Assembly (NCBI RefSeq): GCF_006540005.1
Contig: NZ_BJOC01000018.1
Span: forward strand, 124,001-188,000
Direction: 5' to 3'
From: Halomonas halmophila
GTDB lineage: Bacteria > Pseudomonadota > Gammaproteobacteria > Pseudomonadales > Halomonadaceae
Length of the DNA stretch: 64,000 bases
This document shows, in pieces, positions 6,109 through 52,003 of this stretch; position 1 is the first letter of the stretch, and the number at the start of each line of letters is the position of its first letter. The notes below the pieces were generated by a model. The model was not told the DNA's origin. It saw only the letters and a list, made by a program, of their open reading frames with translations, and made no database searches. The position numbers were made by a program, and so were the translations under genes.

Positions 6109-6474
6109 TTTGACCTCCCATGAAGCTTGGGCATTGAATACAGCTCCTGTGTGAATCTCTCCTGAGCTGTGTCTATTAACAATAGTTCATTTAGAGTATG
6201 ACACAAGTAGTAATAAATGGTTTTATTGTGCTAATTCGATGATGGCATGATTTGTAGATTATAATCATGCTTTTATGAGATAGGGGTGAGCCAGGAAGGT
6301 GGGGCCCGGGTTCGCCGCAGGGCTTGCTGTACCGGGGCCAGCATCCTCGGGTCGATGGACTGGAACCAGAGTTAGCATCGGGCCGATGATGTGGCATCAT
6401 GGGCACGCGTTGATGGCAGGGTCGCCATGTCATGGCCGATCCGCTCAGCGCCTCACAATTCAATTCACTGTCGC
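6109..6474. other. AT-rich intergenic region upstream of the TPP riboswitch
   Basis: The part from about 6170 to 6290 is much more AT-rich than the rest of the window and contains an 8-bp inverted repeat (GCATGATT at 6245-6252, AATCATGC at 6263-6270) that could be an operator. The GC-richer part from 6290 to 6470 has open frames on both strands but none resembling a known protein; a decayed gene cannot be excluded. Confidence 0.5.
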
Positions 6475-6560
6475 CAGGGGAGCCCCACCCGCTATGCCGG
6501 GGCTGAGAGAGCGTCCGACGCTGACCCTGGAACCTGATCCGGTTTGTACCGGCGGAGGAA
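6475..6560 (+). promoter_or_regulatory. TPP riboswitch (THI element)
   Basis: The conserved THI-box blocks are present in order: GGGGAGCC, then GGGGCTGAGA, then GACCCTGGAACCTGATCCGG, then a TACCGGCGGAGGAA block. This is the thiamine pyrophosphate aptamer. The last block contains GGAGGA (6554-6559), which is also the ribosome-binding site 8 bases before the ATG at 6568. Ligand binding could therefore block translation directly, the common mode in Gram-negative bacteria. I see no intrinsic terminator between aptamer and gene. Confidence 0.95.
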
Positions 6561-6567
6561 GAGCGAC

Positions 6568-7974
6568 ATGCCTTACCTGACGTCAGCCGTGCTGGGCGCG
6601 GCACTGTTGTGTTTTGCCTTTCTGGGCCTGCGGGCCCGCCGGGCCGAAGGCCCCCTCGATGACTATGTGACGGCGCGTAACTCACAGAGTGCGCGTTCGT
6701 TGGGTATTTCCTTTCTGGCCTCCGGCATGGGGGCCTGGATTCTCTTCGCCCCGCCCGAGATCGGCGCCATGGTGGGGCCATTGGCGCTGCTCGGTTATGC
6801 GTTGGGGTCGGCCCTGCCGCTGGTCGTGCTCAGCCTGTATGGGCCGGTGATCCGGCGCTACCTGCCCGAGGGACGCAGCATCGGCGAGTTTGCCGAAGCC
6901 TGCTATGGCGCCGGGGTGCGCCGCTGGGTCACCCTGGTGTCGATTCTCTACATGGGCTGTTTTCTGGCGGCCGAGCTGACCGCCATCGGTGCCATTGCAT
7001 CGCTGCTCTCCGAAGTGCCGTCGAGTGCCGTGGTCATCGGGGTGGCCCTCGTTACCCTGACCTACACGGCGGTCGGCGGGCTGCGTGCCAGCCTGGCCAC
7101 GGATCGTTGGCAGGGCTGGTTGCTGCTGGCGTTACTGATCCTGGTGACGGGGGTCGTGCTCTGGGTGCTGCCGCCCATGCCCGAGCAGGCGTCCCTGCCG
7201 CAGACACCGCCGGTGGATGCCCTCGCGGTGGCCCTGACCCTGGTCATCGCCGTGACCTCCGCCGAGCTCTTTCATCAGGGCTACTGGCAGCGGGTGTGGG
7301 CCGCCGAGGACCAGCGTGCCCTGGGGCGTGGCGCCCTGCTGGGTGGTGTCGGGGTGCTGTTGGTCATCATGGCCATCGGTGGCCTGGGCATGCTCGCGGT
7401 CATGCATGGGTTGCCGCTCGGTGAGCCGCCCATGCCGTTCTTTGCCCTGCTGTCCGAAGCGCCGGGCTGGCTGGCCATTCCGGCGCTGGTGCTGGCCGTG
7501 ACGCTGGTCGCCTCGAGTGTCGACACCCTGCAGACGGCCATTGCCTCGCTGGTGGTGGCCGGTTCCGGCCGCAGCGGCCTGTCCGTCGGCGCGGCGCGCC
7601 TGGTGACCGTGGGCCTGATGTTGCCCGTGGTGGTCATTGCGTTGCAGGAACTGTCGGTACTGCGCCTGTTCCTGATTGCCGACCTGTTGTGCGCCGCGAC
7701 CATCGTGCCGGTGCTGCTCGGCGTCTGGCGACGCATGGGCTCGCTGGCGGCAATGGTCGGCGGCATGGCGGGTCTGGTGGGTGCTGTTGTGCCCGGTTGG
7801 TGGGCCCAGGGCAGCCTGCTGGCGGGCATTCAGGCGGCGAGCTTTCCGGGTGGCATTCCGGCGCTCGCGCCCTTTGTCGGGGCCCTGCTGGCGTCGGCGC
7901 TGGTCAGCGTGGTCATCGCCATGGCCTGGCCGGCTCCGCGTGCTTCCCTGACAAGCGACGGAGGCGATGCATGA
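6568..7974 (+). CDS. Sodium:solute symporter, TPP-regulated (thiamine or precursor uptake)
   Basis: A 468-residue inner-membrane protein with about 12-13 hydrophobic segments, of the SSS family (PutP/PanF relatives). The TPP riboswitch directly upstream and the overlapping tenA gene point to uptake of thiamine, hydroxymethylpyrimidine or a degradation product. Riboswitch-linked SSS members have been called ThiV, but I cannot distinguish orthology from analogy. The ATG at 6568 is chosen over an upstream TTG because the riboswitch ribosome site GGAGGA precedes it by 8 bases. The stop overlaps the tenA start as ATGA, implying translational coupling. Confidence 0.85.
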   Translation: MPYLTSAVLGAALLCFAFLGLRARRAEGPLDDYVTARNSQSARSLGISFLASGMGAWILFAPPEIGAMVGPLALLGYALGSALPLVVLSLYGPVIRRYLPEGRSIGEFAEACYGAGVRRWVTLVSILYMGCFLAAELTAIGAIASLLSEVPSSAVVIGVALVTLTYTAVGGLRASLATDRWQGWLLLALLILVTGVVLWVLPPMPEQASLPQTPPVDALAVALTLVIAVTSAELFHQGYWQRVWAAEDQRALGRGALLGGVGVLLVIMAIGGLGMLAVMHGLPLGEPPMPFFALLSEAPGWLAIPALVLAVTLVASSVDTLQTAIASLVVAGSGRSGLSVGAARLVTVGLMLPVVVIALQELSVLRLFLIADLLCAATIVPVLLGVWRRMGSLAAMVGGMAGLVGAVVPGWWAQGSLLAGIQAASFPGGIPALAPFVGALLASALVSVVIAMAWPAPRASLTSDGGDA

Positions 7975-46105: not shown

Positions 46106-46110
46106 GCGCC

Positions 46111-46157
46111 GAGCTACGAGCTACGAGCTACGAGCTACGAGCTACGAGCTACGAGCT
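46111..46157 (+). repeat. Tandem 7-bp array, GAGCTAC x 6.7
   Basis: Six perfect head-to-tail copies plus five bases of the unit GAGCTAC begin just beyond the pit stop codon. It faces, in inverted orientation, the array at 46195-46269, whose reverse-strand unit is GAGCCGC. Confidence 0.95.
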
Positions 46158-46194: not shown

Positions 46195-46269
46195 GCTCGC
46201 GGCTCGCGGCTCGCGGCTCGCGGCTCGCGGCTCGCGGCTCGCGGCTCGCGGCTCGCGGCTCGCGGCTCG
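46195..46269 (-). repeat. Tandem 7-bp array, GAGCCGC x 10.7 (reverse strand)
   Basis: Read on the plus strand the unit is GCTCGCG, repeated perfectly over 75 bases. On the minus strand it is GAGCCGC, which differs from the facing GAGCTAC array in two of seven positions. The 37-base spacer contains GGTGGCACC at its centre. Confidence 0.95.
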
Positions 46270-46311: not shown

Positions 46312-46352
46312 TCAAGCACGTGCTTTCTTTCACCTGCTGCCGGAGCGCGGCC

Positions 46353-47666
46353 TTGGACACTCGCTTTCCCTTCGTCGACTGGTTTCGCAATTCCTCGCCG
46401 TACATCAATGCCCACCGAGGTCGTACCTTTGTCATCCTGATCGAGGGTGAGGCGGTCGCGGAGGGCCGGGGCGAGCAGCTCATTCAGGATCTGGCGTTGC
46501 TGCATACCCTGGGCGTGCGCCTGGTGGTGGTGCAGGGCATTCGTCCCCAGGTGAACCAGGCGCTCGAGACAGCGAATGTCACGCCGGCGCGCCATCATGG
46601 GCGCTGGGTCGCGGATGAGGCTGTCATGGCGCGCGTCGAGCGGGTGGCAGCCGAACAGCGGCTGTGGCTGGAGTCGCGCTTGTCCCTGGGGCTGCCCAAT
46701 TCGCCCTTGCATGGCGTGGAAATGACGGTGGTGTCGGGCAATCTGGTCATGGCCAAGCCGCTGGGGGTCCGCGAGGGGGTCGATTTCGCGCGCAGCGGCG
46801 AGGTGCGTCGCGTGCGCGACACGGCCATCAGTGGATTGCTGGAGCAGGGCTCGCTGGTCCTGTTGCCGCCCCTTGGCTATTCGAGCACCGGCGAGGTGTT
46901 CGATCTGGATGCCGCCGAGGTCGCCCAGAAAGTGGCGACAGCATTGACCGCCGACAAGCTGATCCTGCTGGGGGAGGCCAGTGGCCTGGTGGATGGCCGG
47001 GGCGAACTGCAGCGTCAGTTGACCCCGGACGAGGCGCGTGACTGGCTCGAGGATACGGCGCCGGGGGAAGAGCTGCATCGTCATCTCAAGTCGGCCAGTG
47101 CGGCCGCGCGCCATGGGGTGTCGCGCACGCATCTGCTGTCCTGGCGCGACCATGATGCGCTGCTGGGCGAGTTGTTCACCCGGGATGGCGTGGGCACCAT
47201 GATCTCGCGCCATCAGTATGAGCAGTTAAGGGCCGCTCAGGTGGGTGACGTGGCGGGCCTGCTGGAGCTGCTCGAGCCGCTCGAGCAGCGCGGCATGCTG
47301 GTGCCGCGCTCGCGCGAACGCCTGGAATACGAAATTGATGACTATGTAGTGATCGAGCGGGATGGCATGGTCATCGGTTGTGCCGCCCTGCATGTCTTTC
47401 AGGCGGCCGGCATGGGTGAACTCGCCTGTGTGGCGGTGCATGTCGACTATCGCGGAGGCGCGCGCGGCGACCTGCTGCTCACCGAGGTGGAGAAGCGCGC
47501 CAGGCATCAGGGGCTCGGCTCGCTGTTCGCGCTGACGACGCATACGGCGCACTGGTTCTTCGAGCACGGCTTCCGCACTGCAGAACTCGCGGATCTGCCC
47601 CCTCTCAAGCGTGATACCTATAATCACGCCCGGCAGTCCAAGGTGCTGGTCAAGTCGATCCGCTGA
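46353..47666 (+). CDS. argA: Amino-acid N-acetyltransferase ArgA
   Basis: A 437-residue N-acetylglutamate synthase, the first enzyme of arginine synthesis. The N-terminal amino-acid-kinase-like domain (FVILIEGEAVAEGR, then VVVQGIRPQVNQALE) mediates arginine feedback in this family. The C-terminal GNAT domain (about 290-437) has the acetyl-CoA region CVAVHVDYRGGARGDLLLTEVEKRARHQGL. I choose a TTG start at 46353, because GGAG lies 7 bases upstream and the protein then begins near the conserved FVDWFRNSSPYINAHRG; an upstream GTG at 46320 would add 11 unconvincing residues. Confidence 0.94.
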   Translation: MDTRFPFVDWFRNSSPYINAHRGRTFVILIEGEAVAEGRGEQLIQDLALLHTLGVRLVVVQGIRPQVNQALETANVTPARHHGRWVADEAVMARVERVAAEQRLWLESRLSLGLPNSPLHGVEMTVVSGNLVMAKPLGVREGVDFARSGEVRRVRDTAISGLLEQGSLVLLPPLGYSSTGEVFDLDAAEVAQKVATALTADKLILLGEASGLVDGRGELQRQLTPDEARDWLEDTAPGEELHRHLKSASAAARHGVSRTHLLSWRDHDALLGELFTRDGVGTMISRHQYEQLRAAQVGDVAGLLELLEPLEQRGMLVPRSRERLEYEIDDYVVIERDGMVIGCAALHVFQAAGMGELACVAVHVDYRGGARGDLLLTEVEKRARHQGLGSLFALTTHTAHWFFEHGFRTAELADLPPLKRDTYNHARQSKVLVKSIR

Positions 47667-47996
47667 CCCTCCGCTGCTCGACCATACGGTGTTGCAAGTC
47701 CGCTCAGGCTGCGCTTTTACTTTCTGCCAACCCTCGCTTTTTCGCAGATTTGCGCCTTGTTCACCCTTCCGTGGTCGGCTTTTCAGGCAGCGCCGGGGCG
47801 GGTTTCGGCACCCGGTGTTGCCTTTATGAGACGTTGTAAATCATTGTAATAAAAGTGTTTATCGTTTTTTTTCTGGTTCCACGTCGCTTTATGGCGACAG
47901 AATTCGTCGTGTGTCCCGCCTGGATTGCTCTGTCGTGTCGCGCCCCTTGCAGTTGCTTTTATTTAATCCATTGAATTAAATGGTTTTTTTGTTTTA
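47667..47996 (+). other. AT-rich upstream region of the 48-kb RNA locus
   Basis: No gene is recognisable in these 330 bases. The first half is GC-rich without a terminator for argA. From about 47820 to 47995 the DNA is strongly AT-rich with T runs and short dyads (GTCGC/GCGAC near 47885, CCATT/AATGG near 47970). Such bendable DNA often lies between activator sites and sigma54 promoters, but I found no convincing TGTC-N10-GACA activator site. Confidence 0.5.
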
Positions 47997-48012
47997 TGGC
48001 ATGAAGTTGGCA
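47997..48012 (+). promoter_or_regulatory. Candidate sigma54 promoter
   Basis: TGGCATG-N4-TGGCA matches the sigma54 pattern TGGCACG-N4-TTGCA with GG and GC exactly ten bases apart. Transcription would start near 48024, ahead of the structured region and the sigma54 activator gene glrR. Confidence 0.5.
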
Positions 48013-48023
48013 AGTATTTTAGT

Positions 48024-48473
48024 GAGCGACAGGAAATGATTCTTACGGCTCGAATCGTTTTCCGGCTGCAGCAAGGTAAGATAAATCACTGCCCTGTGTG
48101 CCCTGCCTTGATGTGGTCATTGTCTGCTCCAGCGATGTGTGACTTTAGGTTGCGATGAGACGGTACCGACTTGCGTCATGGAAGCGTACCGAGAAGAGCA
48201 CGGAAGCTCTGGCATGGATGCCAACCCCCGACTTCGGGGCAAGAGTCAATCAGGTATTCGCCTGGCGGCGATACCTCTGGATCGAAGCAAGGCAGTCCGC
48301 TGCCTTGACGCTTGAAGCCAGCCCCTGGTGGCAATGGGATTCAGGCGGCTTCGAGGGCCTTTTAGGGGCCCGTGAAAGTGAGCCAGCAGATTGTGGAGCC
48401 AGGTCCATCTGGCTGGTGCTTTCCAACCCTTCAGTTCCCTGCGTATTGGGCCGGCTCTGCCGGCCTTTTTTTT
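48024..48473 (+). ncRNA. Putative structured small RNA upstream of glrK
   Basis: No protein-like frame is present, yet from about 48160 to 48465 there are about nine consecutive hairpins. They include 48161-48166/48186-48191, 48195-48199/48206-48210 (loop ACGGAA), 48210-48213/48220-48223 (loop ATGGAT), 48226-48230/48235-48239, a 10-bp stem with one bulge at 48252-48276, 48288-48295/48300-48307 (8 bp, loop TCCG), 48355-48359/48367-48371 and 48397-48402/48409-48414. The series ends in a strong terminator. The 5' end is uncertain: about 48024 if the sigma54-like promoter is used, nearer 48150 if not. In enterobacteria the sRNA GlmY occupies this place next to glrK. I cannot assign a known family; two loops with ANGGA could also bind CsrA/RsmA. 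Confidence 0.55.
48449..48473 (+). terminator. Strong Rho-independent terminator of the putative RNA
   Basis: GGCCGGC pairs with GCCGGCC around a TCT loop, followed by eight T residues (48466-48473). It lies 780 bases after argA and 104 bases before glrK, so it must end a transcript that carries no obvious protein. Confidence 0.93.
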
Positions 48474-48577
48474 ACTGTGTTGCCGCGTGCCAGCTGGCAG
48501 GCGAACCCGCGTATCTTTGGTATCCTCGGGCGGTTGCGATAGTGTCCATCATTACCATCTTGCAAAGTACACTAACC

Positions 48578-50056
48578 ATGCCCTCAGTTGTTTCCCGTCG
48601 TTGGCGACCGCGTTCCCTGTTGCAGCTGGTGCTGCTGGCCTTCCTCATGGTGATGCTGCCGTTGGCCGTATTGATGTTTCAGGCCGGGCAGGCGCTTTCC
48701 GAGTTGTCGCGGCTCGCCGATGTGAGTGCGCGTCAGGCGGTCGAGGAAACCCGCCGAGCCCGGACGCTGGGAGCACTGGCGCTGAAAATGGAACGCGCCG
48801 CTCGTCAGTATGCGGTGGTCGAGGACGAGAGCTTGCTCGAGATCTACGACCAGCGGCTGTCGGAATTTCGCAGCCTGCTGGCCATTCAGCGTCAACTGCT
48901 GCCCGATGACCCGAATGTGGCGGCGTTGGGCGAGCAGCTGGATGAATTGGCCGAACTGCCCGACCTGCCTCTGGAGGCGTTCGAGGAGCGCCTGGCCGCC
49001 TTCCTGCCCTTTGCGGAGAAGACCGAGGCTATGCAAGCGGCCACCAACCAGCGAATCGACCAGCGTCTGGAAGATATTCGTCAGCGGGCCGAGGATGTGC
49101 AGACGCGCTTGTGGTGGCAGACAGCTGCCCTGGTGTCGGCGAGCCTGATACTGATGCTGTTGTTCACGCGCCTCATCATTCGACCGATACGCCAGCTTGA
49201 GCGCCACATCCTGGGAATCGGCAGTGGCGGCCAGCAGCAGGTGCGGGGGGCGGTGCAGGGGCCGGCCGAGCTGGTGCGGCTCGATGACCGACTGGATTGG
49301 TTGTCATCCCGGCTCAATGAACTGGAAGAGCAGAAACAGCAGTTTCTGCGGCATATGTCGCATGAGCTGAAGACCCCGCTGGCTAGTGTGCGCGAGGGCT
49401 CATCCCTGCTCACCGATGGGGTAGCAGGCGAGCTGACCCAGCATCAGCGCGAGATACTCGAGCTGATCGATGCCAGTGGTGGTGAGCTGCAGCAGCTCAT
49501 CGAACAGTTGCTGGATTACAACCTGCTTCAGCACAACCGCCGCCTGGAACTCGAGGATCGGGATCTTGCCACCGTGGTCAAGGAGGTGTTGGCCAAGCAC
49601 CGACTGGCGCTGCAGAACAAGGGCATGCAGGTCGAGTGTTTCGATGGACCGTTGAAATGGCGGATAGACCCCACTGCGACAAGCCGCATACTCGATAACC
49701 TGATTTCCAACGCCATCGCCTATGGTGAGGATGGAGGCCAGCTGGAGGTGCGGGCGCGTACTACAGCGTCGTGCTTGACGCTCGAGGTAGCCAACAGTGG
49801 TGAGTCCATCTCCGAGGAAGATGCTCAGCACCTCTTCGAGGCCTTCTATCAGGGGCGCATTCGTCGCAAGGGAGCCTTGAAAGGGTCCGGTGTCGGTCTG
49901 TCCGTGGCGGCGGATTGTGCCCGTCTGCAGGAGGGCACGCTCGAGCTGGTCGATGACCGGCTGTCCGTCTGCTTTCGCCTGACGCTGCCTGAGGGAGCAG
50001 GCATGGAAGATAATAACGTATCAAGAGTCTCCCCAGAGGGAGCCGCAAGGAGCTGA
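48578..50056 (+). CDS. glrK: Sensor histidine kinase, GlrK/QseE family
   Basis: A 492-residue membrane sensor kinase. The first membrane segment is about residues 13-34, a mainly helical periplasmic region of about 150 residues follows, and the second segment is near 185-203. A HAMP linker leads to the dimerisation domain with the phospho-acceptor His near 262 (FLRHMSHELKTPLASVREGS) and an ATPase domain with N box RILDNLISNAIAYGEDGG and G box KGSGVGLSVAADCA. Gene order with a QseG-like lipoprotein and a sigma54-type response regulator identifies it as the GlrK/QseE partner. The ATG at 48578 has no strong ribosome site; sequence upstream in the same frame includes the terminator and is not coding. 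Confidence 0.9.
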   Translation: MPSVVSRRWRPRSLLQLVLLAFLMVMLPLAVLMFQAGQALSELSRLADVSARQAVEETRRARTLGALALKMERAARQYAVVEDESLLEIYDQRLSEFRSLLAIQRQLLPDDPNVAALGEQLDELAELPDLPLEAFEERLAAFLPFAEKTEAMQAATNQRIDQRLEDIRQRAEDVQTRLWWQTAALVSASLILMLLFTRLIIRPIRQLERHILGIGSGGQQQVRGAVQGPAELVRLDDRLDWLSSRLNELEEQKQQFLRHMSHELKTPLASVREGSSLLTDGVAGELTQHQREILELIDASGGELQQLIEQLLDYNLLQHNRRLELEDRDLATVVKEVLAKHRLALQNKGMQVECFDGPLKWRIDPTATSRILDNLISNAIAYGEDGGQLEVRARTTASCLTLEVANSGESISEEDAQHLFEAFYQGRIRRKGALKGSGVGLSVAADCARLQEGTLELVDDRLSVCFRLTLPEGAGMEDNNVSRVSPEGAARS

Positions 50057-50060
50057 TGAT

Positions 50061-50597
50061 ATGCAGAGTAGAACCTGGAGCGTCTGTCTGACCGCACTCT
50101 GGCTGACGGGCTGTCAGTGGCTTCCCATGGCGCCCGAGCAGGGCCAGGAGGGCAACGCACCCACGCAGCCGGAAGCCATGGAGTGCTATACGCAAGCCCC
50201 CGGCTTCCGCGATTCAGCCTGCTTGTTGCAAGAGTGGGTGGCCTTTGGTCTGGCCTCGCAACGCGCTGACAGCGAATGGCGCAGTGACATGCTGGAGCGT
50301 TTCAAGGGCACCAGGGCCGAGGCCCGGCTGGCGCGGGCGATGGTCATGGCATGGGGCCCCGTTGCCCAGTGGAAGCAGGCCTCTGAGCTGCTCAAGGCTG
50401 ACCTGCATGCGGCACCATCAAAGCTGCAGCCCCTGTTGCGCTACTGGCTTAATGAACTGGAGCGCCGTCGCGACCTCCAGTATCGCCATTACCAGGTGCT
50501 GGAAGAACAAAAAAACCTGGAAGCTGACAAACAAGCGCTCGAGGAAAAGCTTGATGCGCTCACCGATATTGAACGCAACATCAACTCGCGAGAGTGA
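50061..50597 (+). CDS. qseG: QseG-like lipoprotein
   Basis: A 178-residue predicted lipoprotein with a short signal and lipobox LWLTGC (Cys about residue 18). The mature part has a small domain with three further cysteines nearby (MECYTQAPGFRDSACLLQEW), then a C-terminal coiled coil (about 140-175). In enterobacteria the outer-membrane lipoprotein QseG lies between qseE/glrK and qseF/glrR and links the kinase to a sensing complex; this gene has the same position and size class, although sequence identity cannot be judged here. AAGGAG precedes the ATG by 8 bases, inside the end of glrK. Confidence 0.75.
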   Translation: MQSRTWSVCLTALWLTGCQWLPMAPEQGQEGNAPTQPEAMECYTQAPGFRDSACLLQEWVAFGLASQRADSEWRSDMLERFKGTRAEARLARAMVMAWGPVAQWKQASELLKADLHAAPSKLQPLLRYWLNELERRRDLQYRHYQVLEEQKNLEADKQALEEKLDALTDIERNINSRE

Positions 50598-50620
50598 GGC
50601 GAGTAACACGGAGACACGAT

Positions 50621-52003
50621 ATGACCCCTGGCGGAGCCACGACAGCCACGCTCGATCAAGCCGCCCACATCCTGTTGGTGGACGATGACGTCAGCCTGTT
50701 GAAACTGCTGGGCATGCGGCTCGAGAGTCGCGGTTACCGCGTGACCACGGCCGAAAGCGGCCCATCGGCTCTCAAACAACTGGAGGCGGAACGACCCGAT
50801 CTGGTGCTGTCTGACATGCGCATGGATGAAATGGATGGCATGGCGCTGTTTCAGGAGATCCAGCGTCGCCTGCCGGGGTTGCCGGTGATCATCCTCACCG
50901 CTCACGGTTCGATCCCCGATGCCGTCAGCGCCACGCGTCAGGGGGTGTTCGGTTTCCTGACCAAGCCGGTGGATCGCGAGGAACTGTTCGCCACCATCGA
51001 GGATGCGCTGGCGCAGACCGCGGCAGGGAGCGGCGACGATGATAGCTGGCGAGCGGCGATCATCACACGAAGCCCTGACATGGAGCGCGTGCTGGAACAG
51101 GCCAGGATGGTGGCGGCGTCCGATGTCAGCGTGCTGGTGACCGGGCCCTCGGGCTCCGGCAAGGAGCTGATGGCAGGGGCGATTCACAAGGCCAGCCGGC
51201 GTGCCGACAAGCCGTTCATCGCCATCAACTGCGGTGCTCTACCGGAGCAGTTGCTCGAGAGTGAGCTCTTCGGTCATGCCAAGGGCGCCTTCACCGGAGC
51301 GATCAGCGATCACGAGGGCCTCTTTCAGGCCGCCGACGGTGGCACCCTGTTCCTCGATGAGATCGGCGACATGCCGCTGACCCTACAGATCAAGCTGCTG
51401 CGTGCCTTGCAGGAACGCCAGATTCGCCCGCTGGGGTCCACGAAGTCGATACCCGTGGACGTCCGCCTGATTTCGGCCACTCACCGTGACCTGAGCCAGG
51501 CCATGGAGAGCGGCGACTTTCGCGAGGACCTTTTCTATCGCCTGAATGTCGTCAATCTGCGTTTGCCGCCGCTCAAGGAGCGTGCCGAGGATGTGCCGCT
51601 GTTGGCCAAGCACCTGGTCACCCAGGCCGCCGAACGGCACAAGCCCTTCGTCAAGGGCTTCTCCAAGGAAGCGATCAACCTGCTGGCGTCAAGCGCCTGG
51701 CCGGGCAATGTGCGCCAACTGGTGAACGTGGTGGAGCAGTGCGTGGCACTGACCAGTGCGCCGATCATTCCCGAGGCGCTGGTCTCCCAGGCACTGGTGG
51801 CCGAAGAAAATGCCCTGCCGACCTTCAATGACGCCCGGGCCGGCTTTGAACGCAGCTATCTGATCAAGGTATTGAAGATTACCGAGGGCAACGTTACCCA
51901 GGCGGCACGGATCGCCGGGCGTAATCGCACGGATTTCTACAAGCTGCTGGCGCGCCACGAGCTTGAGCCCTCGACCTTCAAGGGCAACGTCAGTCACGCC
52001 TGA
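50621..52003 (+). CDS. glrR: Sigma54-dependent response regulator GlrR/QseF
   Basis: A 460-residue NtrC-type activator. The receiver domain (residues about 15-130) has the acidic pair in HILLVDDDVSLL and the phosphorylated Asp at residue 65 (LVLSDMRMDEMDG). The AAA+ domain (about 150-380) holds Walker A GPSGSGKE, the sigma54 contact loop GAFTGA and Walker B GGTLFLDEIGD. A Fis-type helix-turn-helix ends the protein (GNVTQAARIAGRNRTDFYKLL). It is paired with the kinase two genes upstream; in enterobacteria GlrR activates sigma54 promoters of glmY and rpoE. Ribosome site GGAGA precedes the ATG at 50621. Confidence 0.95.
   Translation: MTPGGATTATLDQAAHILLVDDDVSLLKLLGMRLESRGYRVTTAESGPSALKQLEAERPDLVLSDMRMDEMDGMALFQEIQRRLPGLPVIILTAHGSIPDAVSATRQGVFGFLTKPVDREELFATIEDALAQTAAGSGDDDSWRAAIITRSPDMERVLEQARMVAASDVSVLVTGPSGSGKELMAGAIHKASRRADKPFIAINCGALPEQLLESELFGHAKGAFTGAISDHEGLFQAADGGTLFLDEIGDMPLTLQIKLLRALQERQIRPLGSTKSIPVDVRLISATHRDLSQAMESGDFREDLFYRLNVVNLRLPPLKERAEDVPLLAKHLVTQAAERHKPFVKGFSKEAINLLASSAWPGNVRQLVNVVEQCVALTSAPIIPEALVSQALVAEENALPTFNDARAGFERSYLIKVLKITEGNVTQAARIAGRNRTDFYKLLARHELEPSTFKGNVSHA

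Follow-up and report, generated by a model that had tools for sequence, protein, structure and literature searches.

A conserved non-coding RNA with CsrA-type hairpins at the glmY position of Halomonadaceae

The 64,000-nucleotide stretch of Halomonas halmophila DNA analysed here (hereafter the window) carries, between argA and glrK, the gene of a structured RNA that is near certainly a real, family-wide non-coding RNA gene of the Halomonadaceae. In our best reading, which rests on sequence comparison and to which we assign a probability of about 0.63, this RNA would be controlled by GlrKR and sigma54, would titrate CsrA and would carry a separate effector module at its 3' end. The initial annotation had proposed a new sRNA at the place that glmY occupies in enterobacteria, and this proposal stands. 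It had further suggested a possible functional counterpart of GlmY, with binding of CsrA/RsmA as the alternative; judged from the sequence, it is the alternative that has become better supported (by conserved ANGGA hexaloops on covarying stems), whereas a counterpart in the RapZ/glmS sense was not borne out.

Locus, distribution and fold

The features of the locus are collected in Table 1. The predicted start of the RNA was set 12 nt past the -12 element of its promoter, while its 3' end is the T tract of the terminator. Downstream, glrK owes its name to its position ahead of glrR (the 25 NCBIfam matches listed, out of 66, contain no kinase model at cut-off for its product), the gene in the qseG position has no family match in the Pfam or NCBIfam matches listed, and glrR is followed by xseA on the opposite strand. 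The gene order in E. coli K-12, glmY-glrK-qseG-glrR-glnB, is the same arrangement. The source genome comprises 3.25 Mb in 90 contigs, and its nearest relative at the sRNA locus (G035) shows 81% identity there. Elsewhere in the window, a TPP riboswitch at 6466-6578 (RF00059, 65.4 bits) is the only Rfam match at gathering score, and two tandem arrays of perfect 7-bp units, CGAGCTA repeated 6.9 times (46110-46157) and GCTCGCG repeated 10.7 times (46195-46269), lie ahead of the predicted argA start at 46320.

Table 1. Coordinates of the features at the sRNA locus (positions in the window)
Feature	Position	Strand	Remarks
argA	46320-47666	+	NCBIfam NF003641
Possible second GlrR/QseF site TGTTGCCTTTATGAGACG (tentative)	47816-47833	+	1 mismatch to TGTN12ACA
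GlrR/QseF-type upstream activating site CGTCGCTTTATGGCGACA	47882-47899	+	1 mismatch to TGTN12ACA
sigma54 (-24/-12) promoter TGGCATGAAGTTGGCA	47997-48012	+	GG-N10-GC
Structured sRNA gene, ~451 nt	48023-48473	+	between argA and glrK
5' hairpin, near-invariant CGGCTC loop, strongly covarying stem	48036-48058	+	alignment columns 22-28 with 39-45
Near-invariant core GTCTGCTCC..GCGATGTGTGAC..AGGTTGCGATGAGAC	48122-48161	+	41 homologues; core of covariance model R1
Hairpin with ANGGA site 1 (48178-48182), no simple hexaloop	48162-48190	+	
Hairpin AGAGC-ACGGAA-GCTCT, ANGGA site 2 (48200-48204) as hexaloop	48195-48210	+	
Hairpin GGC-ATGGAT-GCC, ANGGA site 3 (48214-48218) as hexaloop	48211-48222	+	
10-bp stem with one-base bulge, variable domain	48252-48276	+	
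8-bp stem with TCCG loop	48288-48307	+	covarying pairs, columns 350-353 with 377-380
Near-invariant 3' element ACCCTTCAGTTCCCTGCGTA	48426-48445	+	common to second short RNA of other species
Intrinsic terminator	48448-48473	+	stem 48448-48466, then T's to 48473
glrK (qseE), sensor kinase gene	48578-50056	+	HisKA, HATPase_c (Pfam)
Small lipoprotein-like gene, qseG position	50061-50597	+	named by position; lipobox-like LTGC
glrR (qseF), sigma54-dependent response regulator	50594-52003	+	NCBIfam NF011695 equivalog, 806.8 bits, cut-off 763

A DNA search with the interval matched 37 of 58 genomes (own genome included, E <= 0.001); 36 of the matches fall among the 37 genomes of the window's genus and the other is a 27-base match in G039. 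A covariance model of the RNA core (R1, 120 positions), run both times with stricter filters at which weak matches are lost, matched 160 of 275 Halomonadaceae genomes in 16 of 24 genera and gave 10 matches, all of them Halomonadaceae, in an order-wide sample of 390 genomes. Searching named genomes with a DNA pattern of the core turned up 101 stretches, which belong to Halomonas, Billgrantia, Litchfieldella, Franzmannia, Chromohalobacter, Modicisalibacter, Salinicola, Aidingimonas and Cobetia, to one Halomonadaceae MAG and to one record titled only Gammaproteobacteria bacterium; no plasmid records were found. Of 83 testable named loci, 81 have glrK after the RNA. Exceptions among the named loci are L229, without glrK, and L259, without the 3' element described below; L199, on a second contig of Halomonas sp. 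EAR18, is without promoter, 3' element and glrK. Two R1 matches per genome are seen in genus g35 (G163, G166, G168, G171, G174 and G176), where the long RNA may be duplicated; L199 is one such second copy.

The set of 49 full-length homologues used below was obtained after merging identical sequences, and leaves out a duplicate (L031), the short-RNA loci L039-L045, L055, L070 and L080, and two loci in which the promoter is nearer than 380 nt (L060 and L078). In line with a new sRNA, a check against Rfam 15 found no family at gathering score for the window locus and 12 homologous or short-RNA loci. One ORF (48155-50056) stays open from within the RNA through glrK. A protein-coding reading was rejected, since only 22 of the 49 homologues keep the glrK frame open beyond 20 nt into the RNA, with scattered end points, which agrees with the original statement that the interval holds no protein-like frame.

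The interval 48020-48475 has a folding energy of -182.8 kcal/mol as against -168.1 (sd 5.8) in dinucleotide shuffles (z -2.56), and none of 100 such shuffles was as stable. The 10-bp and 8-bp stems were confirmed where the initial annotation had placed them, and so was the terminator, which is accepted because it is conserved and not because of the count of such sites, one terminator-like site being not above chance (shuffle mean 2.1). Conservation and compensatory changes within the Halomonadaceae, named beforehand among the tests of the proposed RNA, were both found. The core motif is present in 47 of the 49 full-length homologues (L016 and L030 deviate from the pattern used), 41 of which entered the core alignment, where 95.9% of the cells in the stems are standard pairs. 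Two-sided changes affect 7 of the 24 pairs against 2.7 in shuffles, and covariation scores 0.105 where shuffles score 0.058 (0 of 500 shuffles in both cases), although kinship among homologues can inflate this test; the number of further pair types is unexceptional (12 against 11.0, 153 of 500). Shifting the partners of the core stems abolishes pairing. At the level of single pairs, columns 60/72 in the hairpin of site 1 are C-G in 21 of the 41 sequences and A-U in 19. In the whole-length alignment, which took 35 of 42 sequences, 32 of the 81 consensus pairs show compensatory changes, and the 5' hairpin, in which both sides have changed at one pair in up to 13 of the 35 sequences, is among the strongest covarying parts.

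The distribution of the RNA can be set beside that of GlrK. In a search of 30 family genomes, whose counts are less independent than they appear owing to shared ancestry, GlrK was present in 19 and missing in 11, and none of these 11 is among the R1 matches. Of the 19 glrK-bearing genomes, 13 show an ANGGA-bearing RNA before glrK, 11 of them being R1 matches (one weak, G149, E 1.1e-4), and the RNAs of L137 and L139 were recognised by motif, promoter and 3' element only; one genome has only a short RNA without ANGGA (L142), and in five no such RNA was found (L133, L140, L141, L143 and L144). In genus g44, R1 matches 0 of 82 genomes and GlrK is missing in 8 of 8 sampled, which suggests that this large genus lost the whole module. 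Since g44 is without the RNA, the latter would be an added input into the Csr network and not the family's sole Csr RNA, on the assumption that g44 has CsrA.

Promoter, ANGGA hairpins and 3' element

The GG-N10-GC of the sigma54 promoter is kept in 29 of 29 oriented homologues, and a sigma54 promoter is found in 99 of 100 testable named loci. Of 60 distinct loci, 51 have it 300-600 nt before the 3' element; 8 more, which have short RNAs, have it at 150-300 nt. In L045 the promoter (TGGCATTCTTATCGCT) was seen in the alignment, outside the range scanned since the RNA is short; L020, a TTTAG variant, is outside the 29 oriented homologues but included in later counts. No match to a sigma70 promoter was found near the sRNA locus. 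The consensus of QseF/GlrR sites is given as TGTN12ACA (PMC6075780), and most upstream palindromes of this type stand ~115-127 or 179-192 nt ahead of the -24 element, with others farther out. In 59 loci 57 such sites were counted, where mononucleotide shuffles would give 1.4, over a range that was chosen after sites had been seen; at least one is present in 40 of the 59 loci. The window site CGTCGCTTTATGGCGACA is nearly identical to TGTCGCTTTCTGGCGACA upstream of E. coli glmY, while the tentative second site, TGTTGCCTTTATGAGACG, resembles those at -180 in other homologues (L008, for example), and is a weak palindrome that is absent from a stricter palindrome scan. The sigma54 promoter and the near-identical QseF/GlrR sites thus point to the same switch as that of glmY, and the RNA is very probably under GlrR/sigma54 control, as had been proposed at the outset, the role of GlrR itself being one that we infer.

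Three successive ANGGA motifs are present in all 49 full-length homologues (RNA positions 147-168, 169-189 and 183-203), and at least three occur within 95 nt past the core in 100 of the 101 named loci. In all 49 homologues, sites 2 and 3, the two hairpins in which exposed ANGGA had been noticed originally, are ANGGAN hexaloops on stems of at least three pairs. Site 1 never forms such a hexaloop, and the unpaired probabilities from a single-sequence fold are 0.36, 0.99 and 0.86 for sites 1, 2 and 3, respectively. Three bare ANGGA motifs occur in 25% of dinucleotide shuffles, so their count is not in itself unusual in the window RNA; at least two ANGGAN hexaloop hairpins occur in 0.7% of 2000 such shuffles. 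Across homologues the loop is constant and the stems vary (GAGC/GCTC, GGGC/GCCC, GGAC/GTCC, AAGC/GCTT), as they do in diverged genera (CTCTCCC/GGGAGAG, CCAGGC/GCCTGG, TGGGC/GCCCA), and the diverged L136 keeps the loop on another stem, CTCTCCCATGGATGGGAGAG. Only two ANGGA are found in the RNA of the diverged L137, and L137 and L139 have one hexaloop each. Among 100 hexaloop hairpins, 99 are of the form C-ANGGAN-G, which CsrA/RsmA binds best, and 53 match CARGGAUG, the core of the reported SELEX consensus, RUACARGGAUGU; most of the loops selected in that work had six nt, and RsmE is described as contacting an ANGGAN hexaloop (PMC7652899).

The genome has a single csrA of the common type (65 aa), whose product begins MLILTRRVGETLM, the same start as in H. 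hydrothermalis CsrA. Promoters of the GacA/UvrY type carry the box TGTAAGN6CTTACA. None was found at the sRNA locus; the own genome has two sites with at most one mismatch, both elsewhere, and by eye neither leads into a CsrB-like gene. A GacA-box-like palindrome of the own genome (TGTAATATATGTCTTACA, L268) lies ~330 nt before a frame that by eye is type VI secretion sheath-like. The RsmY model gave no match over cut-off in the whole own genome, and RsmY-like matches elsewhere were rejected (the best, E 0.0035, was below cut-off, and L047 and L048 resemble coding sequence).

Ahead of the terminator stands a 16-nt 3' element, TTYAGTTCCCTGCGTA, which is present in 94 of 96 testable named loci when C or T is allowed at three positions; a strict pattern occurs in 87 of the 275 family genomes, with two copies in 18. 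The element extends to diverged genera (L136-L139) and to L142 (genus g43), where the only RNA is a short one without ANGGA. In seven genomes the element and terminator are found a second time, tens of kilobases off or on another contig; this second copy ends a shorter RNA that has its own sigma54 promoter and, in 6 of 6 tested, a TGTN12ACA-type palindrome. In genus g24 (L132) two sigma54 RNAs stand in tandem before glrK, a long one with ANGGA hairpins and a short one. Since the 3' element is reused in short RNAs, of which that of L142 is without ANGGA, it is separable from the putative CsrA domain. By eye, the short RNA precedes a GGDEF-type gene in three translated loci (L039, L040 and L044), and in L040 and L044 a HIT-type gene on the opposite strand comes before it.

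As regards its function, the 3' element is most likely a base-pairing seed placed beside a U-rich terminator, and its unpaired probability is 0.46 against an average of 0.34 (49 homologues). In a simple and weak duplex test on eight glmS leaders, shuffled seeds equalled it in 15.5-87% of trials. It paired no better than shuffled seeds with the leaders of csrA, glrK, glrR, qseG, rapZ, argA and xseA, and a scan of the own genome showed no enrichment of its complement (31 sites, counting the own locus, versus 49 with the reversed control).

Proposed mechanism and competing readings

In the reading that we prefer, signals received through GlrK/QseG would lead to phosphorylated GlrR on the TGTN12ACA sites, and GlrR would open the sigma54 promoter to give a burst of the 450-nt RNA. 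With its three neighbouring ANGGA, of which two are presented by ideal CsrA hexaloops, the RNA would bind CsrA dimers, free CsrA would fall and CsrA-controlled mRNAs would be released or destabilised, as happens with CsrB/RsmZ under GacA, while the 3' element would act as a separate module. The RNA is like CsrB/CsrC and RsmX/Y/Z in that several ANGGA stand in hairpin loops, in that its hexaloops are of the form C-ANGGAN-G and in that a two-component system is the proposed trigger. It is unlike them in having a sigma54/GlrR promoter and no GacA box, only three invariant sites, a large extra conserved core and 3' element, and no Rfam match. CsrB has far more ANGGA sites than three. What speaks against CsrA titration is that only three ANGGA are invariant, of which site 1 is predicted to be partly buried and is never a hexaloop, and that titration leaves the conserved core and the 3' element unaccounted for. 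As to the proposed logic, a sigma54-dependent sponge RNA beside its own two-component system, the closest analogy may be CrcZ/CrcY of Pseudomonadaceae beside CbrAB, likewise switched on by a sigma54 activator. This comparison is one of layout and logic. CrcZ/CrcY lie after cbrB and titrate Hfq/Crc; binding to RsmA and RsmN has been reported too (PMC8871633).

Readings that give the ANGGA hairpins a lesser part were weighed as well. The 3' element is the most widely kept part of the RNA, in nearly all the testable named loci, in the diverged genera and at the second RNA locus, it is unpaired more than average and a T-tract terminator comes just after it. This would fit a base-pairing, probably Hfq-dependent sRNA in which the 3' element is the main function and CsrA tunes stability or is a side feature. 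However, no target was found among the tested leaders or by the complement scan of the genome, and the three ANGGA that are invariant in 49 of 49 homologues would be left unexplained; we regard such an RNA as an unlikely alternative. The position before glrK-qseG-glrR, the promoter logic shared with E. coli glmY (sigma54 and near-identical QseF/GlrR sites) and the presence of both rapZ and glmS would suit a functional counterpart of GlmY/GlmZ, i.e. a decoy for RapZ by which glmS expression is increased, and the second sigma54 RNA with a common 3' end in part of the Halomonadaceae recalls the GlmY/GlmZ pair. Nevertheless, no Rfam family is matched at gathering score and the GlmY/GlmZ covariance model gave no row at the window locus, even in a lax search with E up to 10; the halomonad RNA has 451 nt, against 184 nt for GlmY, and carries ANGGA hairpins; and in the weak duplex test no specific pairing of the 3' element was seen in the eight glmS leaders. 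The protein side points in the same direction. RNA binding by E. coli RapZ is reported to need Lys270, Lys281, Arg282 and Lys283 (PMC7073468), which align with Pro, Glu, Lys and Glu in Halomonas RapZ (49% identical, with a longer, acidic tail), so that the RNA-binding residues are not conserved, only Arg282 to Lys being a conservative change. The likeness to GlmY would therefore appear to be confined to locus and promoter, and a role as RapZ decoy is improbable.

Scarcely probable, finally, is that the interval belongs to glrK as a long structured 5' leader or attenuator and is not an independent sRNA. The two are on the same strand, the RNA stops ~100 nt short of glrK and in Proteus mirabilis glmY and qseEGF are reported to be co-transcribed (PMC8745638), but in the window a strong terminator separates the RNA from glrK, the 3' element and terminator recur far off or on another contig in seven genomes, and genus g24 has a tandem pair of such RNAs. 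Kinship with SorY, SorX or suhB/mmgR was rejected (20.7, 17.3 and 25.6 bits against gathering scores of 111, 46.6 and 41, respectively), as what matches is the terminator together with the CU-rich stretch that precedes it, a common shape.

Meaning for halomonads

In the titles and abstract openings of the open-access literature on Halomonas sRNAs, CsrA and GlrR/QseF, no description of the RNA was found, and the titles and abstract openings of open-access papers likewise gave no description of a two-armed RNA regulon. The Gac/Csr sRNA of Halomonas anticariensis is listed as unknown in a comparative-genomics table of 2020 (PMC7366521). The RNA family is present in this species (L167, now Litchfieldella) and is, with its conserved CsrA-type sites, a concrete candidate for that sRNA. 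The near-unchanged 16-nt 3' element is a further problem, and one that is open to direct testing.

More speculatively, and with the odds slightly against it, the glmY locus might have been rewired in halomonads, so that the envelope-sensing GlrK-QseG-GlrR system feeds the Csr network through a composite RNA, made of a CsrA-titrating domain and a 3' effector, with the same 3' element in a second, shorter GlrR/sigma54 RNA. If this is true, one envelope-sensing system would drive different RNAs depending on the lineage, a RapZ decoy in enterobacteria and a CsrA decoy in halomonads, and the RNA would represent a control point in halophiles that are used for the production of ectoine and PHB.
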